A DNA stretch of 64,000 nucleotides from Flavobacterium sp. (GTDB taxonomy: Bacteria > Bacteroidota > Bacteroidia > Flavobacteriales > Flavobacteriaceae): assembly GCA_023259675.1 (NCBI GenBank), contig JALRGT010000003.1, positions 1-64,000 on the forward strand. Direction: 5' to 3'. The notes under the pieces were generated by a model. The model worked only from the letters and a program-made list of their open reading frames with translations, was not told where the DNA came from and did not search any database. The translations under genes were made by a program, and so were the position numbers. Positions 116-38,538 of the stretch are shown here, one piece after another; position 1 is the first letter of the stretch; every line of letters starts with the position of its first letter.

Positions 116-345
116 CTGTTGAGTATAATTAGTTTTTGGGTATAATTTTTCGTCAGTTCGAGTGAATTTTCAGAAAATGCGAAACGCTTTTTCGGAAAAT
201 TTGTATCGAGAACAGGACTAGCGCATTAAAAAAGGTTCTCGATACACGTCACTTCGAGTAGCGAAGCGTATCGAGAAGTTTTACTCCATTTCATTACGCA
301 AAAAACACTCGAACTGACGTTATCTGCAATTATATCTAATTCGGT
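116..345. repeat. degenerate copy of nested palindromic repeat element, with internal mini-module 247-277
   Basis: tctgttgagtataattagttttt...cgtcagttcgagtg (151) ... gtatcgagaac (213) ... gttctcgatac (235) ... cactcgaactgacg (320). Confidence 0.7.
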
Positions 346-2477: not shown

Positions 2478-2663
2478 AAACCCGTTGGGTGCAATTAGTA
2501 AAAACGTCAGTTCGAGTGTTTTTTGTGCAGTAAAACGGAACAAAAAATGTATCGAGAACCGTTTTTAAAGATATTTTTCTTGTTCTCGATACAATTTTCT
2601 ATCGAAAATTACTCGAACTGACGAAAAACAATCATCAAAACTAATTACACCCAACGGGTTTAT
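2478..2663. repeat. full-length nested palindromic repeat element
   Basis: outer arms aaacccgttgggtgcaattag / ctaattacacccaacgggttt; inner modules 2505-2559 and 2582-2623. Confidence 0.85.
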
Positions 2664-4465: not shown

Positions 4466-4604
4466 CGTCACTTCGAGTGGTTTTTACAAGTAATGCGATA
4501 GCTTTACTTGTAAAAATTGTATCGAGAAGCCTGTAAATATTTGCGTTCTCGATACATTGTATTAAAAAAGCTGTCGCATTTTTAATAAAACACTACCATT
4601 GACG
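4466..4604. repeat. repeat-family copy with two modules, no outer arms
   Basis: cgtcacttcgagtg...gtatcgagaa (4466-4528) and gttctcgatac...cattgacg (4545-4604). Confidence 0.75.
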
Positions 4605-4617
4605 TTTCTATTAGAAA

Positions 4618-4642
4618 GGGCTTCGACAAGCTCAGCCTGACA
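4618..4642. repeat. gggcttcgacaagctcagcctgaca intergenic repeat
   Basis: exact gcttcgacaagctcagcctgaca string, a sequence recalled as recurring between genes in many bacterial genomes. Confidence 0.55.
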
Positions 4643-12246: not shown

Positions 12247-12335
12247 TTTTACCACAAAGGGCACGAAGTTTTACGCTAAGTTCACAAAGCTTTGTGGTCA
12301 TTGCGCCTTCTTTGTGTTCTTTGCGGTTAAACATT
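12247..12335. repeat. intergenic repeat of the 'accacaaagggcacgaag...ctttgtg...ctttgcggt' type
   Basis: imperfect inverted/tandem units: accacaaagggcacgaagttttacgctaagttcacaaagctttgtggtc ... ccttctttgtgttctttgcggtt. Confidence 0.6.
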
Positions 12336-13503
12336 ACACCAAATTTAAGTAAAACAAATCACTTGCAATTCCATCCGTCAAAAACTTTCCTTTTGGAGTA
12401 GTTTTCAGAATCTTCTCGATACGATTCCGCCCAAAAACGGAATCACTCGAAGTGACGATTTCCAATACATCATTTTGAATGTGTTTTTCACTTTGTTTAT
12501 TGAGATATCCCAAATATCCTGGACCAAATTCGGCAGCAATTCGATCTAGTGAAACACCCCAAATCGTTCGCAAACCCGTCATGATATATTCATTGTATCG
12601 GTCGGCAACAGTGAGTATTTCGACTTCATTTGGAATTTTATCTTCTTGAATTGATTTTATATAATGGGTATTATTGGCGATGTTCCAACTACGGGAAATC
12701 CCATCATAACTATGTGCCGAAGGACCAATACCGATGTATTTTTTACCCAACCAATACGCCGAATTGTTCTTGGAGAAATAGTTTTCTTTTCCAAAATTGG
12801 ACAACTCATAATGAATGAATCCGTTTTTCTCTAAGGTTTCCACCAAAATAGCAAAATGTTCCTGAGCCACTTCGTCTTTTGGTGCGGCTATTTTCCCGGC
12901 TTGAATGAGTTTGTTCAAAGCCGTTTTGGGTTCAACCGTTAAGGCATAACTCGAAATATGCGGTACACCAAAGGACAAAGCGGTTTCAATATTTTGTCGC
13001 CATTTTTTATTACCCATTCCTGGAATTCCATAGATTAAATCAATGGAAATATTTTCAAAATACTGAGTCGCTTCTTGCAAACTTTTTTGGGCTTCCGCCG
13101 AATTATGTGCTCGATTCATCATCATCAAATCTTCTTCAAAAAAAGATTGGATTCCGATGGATAAGCGGTTGATTGGCGTATTTGACAATTCGATAATTCG
13201 TTCGCTCGATAAATCATCCGGATTGGCTTCGAGAGTAATTTCTGGGTTTTCTACAACTTTATAGTTTTCATAAACTGCATCAATCAATAATTTTATTTCT
13301 TCCGTTGACAATACACTTGGGGTACCTCCACCAAAATAAATGGTTTCAATCGTTTCATTGGCAAACTCACTTTTGCGCATTTGGATTTCTTTGGCCAAAG
13401 CCAAAACCATTTCCTCTTTCTTTTTCATTGAAGTCGAAAAATGAAAGTCGCAGTAATGACAAGCTTGCTTGCAAAAAGGAATATGGATGTAGATGCCGCT
13501 CAT
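12334..13503 (-). CDS. hemW: radical SAM HemW-like protein (coproporphyrinogen III oxidase-like)
   Basis: 'GIYIHIPFCKQACHYCDFHFS' CxxxCxxC cluster, 'IYFGGGTPSVL', 'NRLSIGIQSF', C-terminal 'KGKFLTDGIASDLF'. Confidence 0.92.
   Translation of the reverse strand: MSGIYIHIPFCKQACHYCDFHFSTSMKKKEEMVLALAKEIQMRKSEFANETIETIYFGGGTPSVLSTEEIKLLIDAVYENYKVVENPEITLEANPDDLSSERIIELSNTPINRLSIGIQSFFEEDLMMMNRAHNSAEAQKSLQEATQYFENISIDLIYGIPGMGNKKWRQNIETALSFGVPHISSYALTVEPKTALNKLIQAGKIAAPKDEVAQEHFAILVETLEKNGFIHYELSNFGKENYFSKNNSAYWLGKKYIGIGPSAHSYDGISRSWNIANNTHYIKSIQEDKIPNEVEILTVADRYNEYIMTGLRTIWGVSLDRIAAEFGPGYLGYLNKQSEKHIQNDVLEIVTSSDSVFGRNRIEKILKTTPKGKFLTDGIASDLFYLNLV
12412..12456 (-). repeat. repeat-family module inside the hemW CDS
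   Basis: minus strand: cgtcacttcgagt-gattccg-tttttggg-cggaatc-gtatcgagaa; same flanks as the intergenic modules at 4466, 2505, 38352 and 247. Confidence 0.75.
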
Positions 13504-37999: not shown

Positions 38000-38314
38000 A
38001 TGACACGGAACGCTTTTAAAATGAAATTAAAACCTGGTTTTGAACAGGAATATAAAAAAAGACACGATGAAATTTGGCCTGAATTGGCAAGCCTGCTTTC
38101 TGAATCAGGCATTCAGGATTACTCTATTTTTCTGGATGAAGAGACGTTAATTCTTTTTGCGGTTCAAAAAATAAGTGATGATTTTGATATGGAATTTTTA
38201 CCCAATCACCCAATTGTAAAAAAATGGTGGGCTTACATGGGTGACATTATGGATACAAATCCAGACAATTCTCCTATTTCCAAAACTTTAAAAGAAGTGT
38301 TCCATTTAGATTAA
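38000..38314 (+). CDS. rhaM: L-rhamnose mutarotase
   Basis: 'FKMKLKPGFEQEYKKRHDEIWPELASLLSESGIQDYSIFLDEETLILFAV ... KKWWAYMGDIMDTN'. Confidence 0.93.
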   Translation: MTRNAFKMKLKPGFEQEYKKRHDEIWPELASLLSESGIQDYSIFLDEETLILFAVQKISDDFDMEFLPNHPIVKKWWAYMGDIMDTNPDNSPISKTLKEVFHLD

Positions 38315-38497
38315 ACCCGTTGGGTGTAATTAGTTTTTAATGATAGTTTTTCGTCAGTTCGAGTAATTTTCGATAGAAAATTGTATCGAGAACAAGAAAA
38401 TTTCATTAAAAACGATTCTCGATACATTTTTTGTTCCGCTTTACTGCACAAAAAACACTCGAATTGACGTTTTTAATAATTACACCCAACCGGGTTT
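38313..38497. repeat. full-length copy of nested palindromic repeat element (inverted relative to 2478-2663)
   Basis: outer arms aaacccgttgggtgtaatta / taattacaccca(a)ccgggttt; contains modules 38352-38393 and 38415-38469. Confidence 0.85.
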
Positions 38498-38538
38498 AGA
38501 TTAAATATATTAGTATTTTAAAAAAACAATACCCAACC

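Follow-up and report, generated by a model that had tools for sequence, protein, structure and literature searches.

The best-known examples of in-frame palindromes within genes come from Rickettsia, an obligate parasite whose genomes are reduced. Two of the Rickettsia elements, RPE-4 and RPE-6, have been placed among the CGTC-tagged REPs (Di Nocera et al. 2013, PMC3733652), where they are the families CGTC-4 and CGTC-1, respectively, and in-frame REP insertion is already known from Rickettsia and other bacteria (PMC3733652). The CGTC-tagged REPs of families 1-4 have stems of 8-9 bp beginning with complementary AT and loops of 4-5 nt, and no dedicated transposase is known for them (PMC3733652). 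The main text of that paper never mentions Flavobacterium. For two species of this genus RepRanger (PMC12306157) gives only REP counts, and in the literature that we searched we found no paper on in-frame repeats of Flavobacterium.

We describe here a palindromic element that is read in frame within the hemW gene of a Flavobacterium sp. It lies in a stretch of 64,000 nucleotides (the window), whose features are listed in Table 1. Read directly, minus strand 12457-12412 is CGTCACTTCGAGTGATTCCGTTTTTGGGCGGAATCGTATCGAGAAG. The initial annotation had recognised an in-frame repeat module at this place, and its location holds, except that the element runs one base beyond the end given there, 12456. 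The inserted peptide is also as had been claimed, lying between QNDVLEI and ILKTTPKG, and the 46 nt within the open reading frame bring a net gain of 12 residues. The predicted fold of the 46-nt strand has -17.2 kcal/mol as RNA and -8.8 as DNA, values that were reached by 0 of 200 shuffles either way. The module has CGTCAC as its 5' end, of which CGTC is unpaired in the predicted fold.

The host gene is identified as hemW by its match to TIGR00539 (287 bits against a cut-off of 205), together with Pfam matches to Radical_SAM (78 bits) and HemN_C (28 bits) and the CxxxCxxC radical-SAM motif PFCKQACHYCDF. Our structure model of the protein is of modest quality (mean pLDDT 65.5, 30 sequences) and its best match among solved structures is E. 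coli HemN, 1olt. The insert is modelled as a loop, residues 354-362 having pLDDT below 50 and lying between the short strands 347-350 and 365-368 of the C-terminal domain. Survival of inserts in loops is expected regardless of any insertion preference.

Table 1. Positions in the window of the hemW gene, its inserted module and the intergenic members of the same repeat family
Feature	Position	Strand	Description
hemW, radical-SAM heme chaperone HemW	12334..13503	-	389 aa, repeat-interrupted in frame; ORF and TIGR00539
Palindromic repeat module	12412..12457	-	46 nt; CGTCACTTCGAGTG-hairpin-CGTATCGAGAAG; read as VTSSDSVFGRNRIEK
Variable hairpin of the module	12423..12444	-	GATTCCG TTTTTGGG CGGAATC, perfect 7-bp stem; fold z about -3
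Family cluster, intergenic	151..319	.	Ends inverted; one minimal member at 247-277
Inverted pair of two modules, intergenic	2505..2623	.	Within a longer palindrome (AAACCCGTTGGGTG.AATTAGT arms)
Inverted pair, intergenic	4466..4604	.	Ends of the left module are those of the hemW copy
Inverted pair, intergenic	38352..38469	.	Longer palindrome arms as at 2505-2623

The module belongs to a repeat family with constant ends. Allowing up to 2 mismatches, CGTCACTTCGAGTG has 9 matches in the window, where 0.09 would be expected from shuffles; GTATCGAGAA has 10 matches, every one of them exact, compared with an expectation of 2.8 when up to one mismatch is allowed. We defined strict copies by the pattern TTCGAGTN{5,60}GTATCGAGAA and used the reversed pattern as control. 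The 3.4-Mb draft genome has 24 strict copies and none of the reversed pattern, which bears out the proposal that the hemW module shares its flanks with the intergenic modules, since 23 other strict copies have them. A chance match is ruled out by the excess over shuffles in the window and by the reversed control in the genome. Across the family the ends are CGTCA[C/G]TTCGAG and TCGAGAA[G/C], and the hairpin between them varies in sequence and length. A G after GTCA goes with a C after TCGAGAA in 44 of 45 elements, a C with a G in 17 of 29, and over 84 distinct elements these two bases pair in 66, against 38 expected if they were independent. Such covariation speaks for a base-paired foot of the element. 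Inner stems of at least 5 bp are present in 32% of the long elements against 3% of shuffles.

The family is strongly extragenic, because the probability of finding so few copies in genes is about 1e-18 if 85% coding DNA is assumed. The hemW copy is the exception, the only one of the 24 strict copies to lie within a long conserved open reading frame; the other frames that cover copies are short or unsupported. This fits an extragenic repeat that has been purged from most genes. The intergenic copies of the window are mostly inverted pairs with their CGTC ends outermost (Table 1). Two of the pairs, at 2470-2660 and 38310-38500, are each enclosed by a longer palindrome whose arms are AAACCCGTTGGGTGTAATTAGT, an arrangement that resembles a small MITE. 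Other repeat-like intergenic sequences are found at 4615-4640 and 12250-12335 (gggcttcgacaagctcagcctga; ccacaaagggcacgaag..ctttgtggtc), the latter just downstream of hemW. Family members in both orientations also form dense local arrays (G153:C33:18969-30323 and G000:C133:5203-6042).

For the comparison of orthologs we used 200 Flavobacterium genomes and 80 named loci. The alignment check proposed in the initial annotation shows a gap of 12 residues at the element: HemW has 375-378 aa in most species and 389 aa in the window. The insert is absent from 88 of the 92 distinct sequences of this first set. We also looked for a homologous peptide of the same length in orthologs lacking the DNA motif, which would speak against an insertion, and found neither the peptide nor the Glu that precedes it in any of these 88. 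A conserved peptide with convergent DNA is therefore ruled out, as the orthologs are gapped there.

Besides the window, the carriers in the first set are F. restrictum (L083, with a protein identical to L027 from G153), F. cellulosilyticum (L072) and the UBA5153 MAG (L073). The site is also filled in G090, G171 and G061, which makes six other sampled Flavobacterium genomes in all; carrier frequencies are not estimates, since the basal carriers were selected by gene length. Their inserts are intact, decayed or different. One hairpin type is common to the window, F. restrictum and F. cellulosilyticum, and a search of 400 Flavobacterium genomes gave the hairpin type of the window in 2, in hemW both times. 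In L073 and L268 the constant ends are the same but enclose other sequences, L270 has a different repeat, TGTCATTCCCGGCGAGGCGGGAAAG, and the insert of L272 is too changed for recognition. Only the window copy and L270 fold clearly better than shuffles, and the remaining carriers that were folded, L272 being left out, look decayed. Leu-Glu-Ile precedes the insert in all seven carriers, mostly as Tyr/Leu-Leu-Glu-Ile, against 0 of the 88 non-carriers.

This site is not the only one in hemW. At least four further in-frame insertion sites exist in other species, several of them filled by the first or by a second dispersed repeat. Site A, after MRKxE near residue 47, is filled in about ten species by CTTCTCGACTCCGCTCGAAGTGAC, the reverse complement of the minimal form of the family, or by variants of it, and alternatively by GACCCGAGCGAAAGCGAACAGGCGAAGCAA. 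Site B lies near residue 161, following GIPD, and is occupied by GACTCGAGCCAGAATGGCGAACAGGCGAAGCAA. The latter two sequences belong to the second repeat, CGAGC-N-GCGAACNNGCGNAGC, of which each of 12 genomes tested has 1 to 19 copies, with the reversed pattern absent. Filling of sites A and B recurs, with at least 9 and at least 4 changes on the tree, respectively, and both sites likewise lie between secondary-structure elements of the model. Two more sites, after ANPDDL and slightly beyond, are found in L270, L273, L275, L287 and L278. In L312, which belongs to another genus of the family, hemW has GTCACATCGAGCGTAGTCGAGATG in frame; its HemW insert AGHIERSRDARTI comes from GTCACATCGAGCGTAGTCGAGATGC, so in-frame hemW repeats reach beyond Flavobacterium.

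Other coding sequences with the module in frame, a search for which had also been proposed, do exist in other species. Strict copies of the first family are in frame at one site of gltX (glutamyl-tRNA synthetase) in two species (L162, L177), in an epimerase-like gene (L173), in a UDP-sugar dehydrogenase gene (L175) and in an open reading frame without Pfam match (L168). Some genomes have inserts in alaS, several of them palindromic, and the length of rpoB is constant in 26. The alaS inserts in L254/G146, L242/G089, L264/G170 and L257/G409 are in frame and resemble other palindromes, for example GCCCTCTCCAAAGGAGAGGG and the second repeat family.

We conclude that hemW has repeatedly acquired or exchanged such repeats, because the same position is filled in distantly related Flavobacterium species. 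On the tree of alaS and rpoB the window genome, F. restrictum, F. cellulosilyticum and UBA5153 are placed apart, the window genome by alaS alone since rpoB was not found in the draft, and a single clade of these first four carriers is rejected (AU p = 3e-90). The hemW tree alone rejects such a clade mildly (p = 0.02), and over its 137 sequences at least 6 state changes are needed. That these four form one clade with a single, vertically inherited insertion is thus rejected on alaS and rpoB, and only mildly so on hemW.

A REP insertion that is tolerated in a loop of HemW, and that has spread by repeated insertion, by recombination between species or by both, is in our view very probably the explanation. 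Going by the structure model, a REP-like element would have gone in frame into a beta-hairpin of the C-terminal domain, at its tip, and the copy may survive because the added loop is tolerated. The inserted peptide is most likely neutral. The scatter of carriers across species points to movement between species, and the shared flank, together with a hairpin unseen elsewhere, points to a common source for some of the carriers. As the shared hairpin was seen nowhere else in 400 genomes, exchange of a hemW segment is favoured over fresh insertion for the carriers that have it. Repeated insertion at one permissive site is possible too, above all for L270. With one sequence per species, exchange and repeated insertion are inseparable, and neither simple model fully explains that the carriers keep the Leu-Glu-Ile codons yet have different inserts.

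Independent insertions at one hot spot are a possible, if somewhat doubtful, account of the whole pattern. The hot spot might be a tail-like target (ATYGARAA in the empty genes, ATCGAGAA in the element) that draws insertions to exactly this codon, or a rare loop that tolerates inserts. The empty genes indeed have ATTGAAAAT.. where the element ends in ATCGAGAAG, the same site holds different hairpins, and sites A and B are also recurrently filled. However, no donor for two separate insertions is visible for the hairpin that the window has in common with F. restrictum. We consider it unlikely that the site was instead filled near the base of Flavobacterium and then lost many times, the hairpin being altered later by substitutions or gene conversion. 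On the hemW tree L268, L270 and L272 do take positions close to the base of the genus, and the Leu-Glu-Ile common to all carriers also speaks for an old filling. But the losses would have to be many and nearly identical, the hemW tree needs its changes anyway, the basal carriers are a biased sample picked by gene length, and the repeat in L270 is of a different kind (TGTCATTCCCGG..).

The initial annotation had gone further and proposed that the peptide is exapted, a claim that is not supported, as we found no function of the peptide and no clear selection on it, and the hairpin has decayed in most other carriers. That the insert was kept for improving or modifying HemW seems to us highly improbable. 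The inserts of the window, F. restrictum and F. cellulosilyticum are 0.87-0.91 identical to one another, above the gene average of 0.78-0.80, but the insert is just 45 nt and recombination or recent spread yields an identical picture. HemW lacks the insert in most species, the loop is modelled at low confidence, and L073, L268, L270 and L272 have unrelated residues at the site. An assembly or binning artefact can be practically dismissed: the genome is a draft (82% complete, 257 contigs, the rpoB gap included), but the insert sits on a 210 kb contig and the isolates F. restrictum LB1R34 and F. cellulosilyticum AR-3-4 are filled at the same codon.

Returning to a tolerated insertion, one may ask how the element moves. 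Its mobility, which the initial annotation had proposed as well, we infer only, as our Y1_Tnp search tied no transposase to the element. Of 33 Y1_Tnp genes, 3 from this genome and 30 from other genomes, none has paired element ends beside it, and the search gave no Y1_Tnp in the element-rich genomes G061, G082 and G029 (23, 15 and 9 strict copies, respectively). Numbers of strict copies and of Y1_Tnp genes are weakly correlated (rho 0.27, p = 1e-4), for which genome size and completeness could be the source. RAYT was dropped as the mobiliser, there being no flanking association with the element. The missing Y1_Tnp link agrees with the lack of a dedicated transposase published for the CGTC REPs (PMC3733652) and leaves room for action in trans. 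The insertion route might be a hairpin-recognising (single-strand) transposition acting in this way. A bolder and rather improbable reading is an active, RAYT-independent system of hairpin repeats that enters housekeeping genes in frame at preferred permissive codons, the filled hemW site being traded between species with the hairpin swapped and the constant ends kept.

What is new here is a Flavobacterium element with constant ends and a variable hairpin, its recurrence at one hemW codon in species that are far apart, and the abundance of such inserts across the genus. The same process thereby extends to a genus that is mostly free-living, where it involves several repeat families and several sites in a single gene, with empty, filled and decayed states across over a hundred species. 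It would be interesting to address with sister strains and at the bench what moves CGTC-type REPs, whether they are excised and whether their peptides are useful, questions that have now become testable.

Several known systems resemble the element in part. With the GTAG REPs and their RAYT transposases it shares hairpin repeats, inverted pairs and an extragenic bias, but it lacks the GTAG tag and no Y1_Tnp gene was found flanked by it. The TnpA-REP subclass 2.6 of Bacteroidetes, with its 'atypical secondary structures' (PMC6006769), is from the same phylum and is similarly atypical in structure, but its repeats flank their tnpA genes (PMC6006769), an association that we do not see here. The likeness to Rickettsia drawn in the initial annotation is apt, as RPE-4 and RPE-6 are CGTC-tagged REPs (PMC3733652) and the present element starts with CGTC. 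Like them, it is a small palindrome placed in frame in protein genes without closing the reading frame, and the orthologs of its host gene are gapped at the insertion. It differs in its stem architecture, going by the published description, and in its host, a genus of free-living Bacteroidota that has several repeat families. With the CGTC-tagged REPs in general it has in common the terminal unpaired CGTC, the hairpin and a short unpaired tail, the frequent inverted pairs and a location mostly between genes and at times inside them. In contrast to their AT-initiated stems, the stem here starts C/G-TTC, with a foot of CTTC/GTTC (or TTCGA), and the inner hairpin ranges from a few bases to more than 50. 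The element is thus REP-like and most like the CGTC-tagged REPs, including RPE-4 and RPE-6, yet its stem departs from those published for them.
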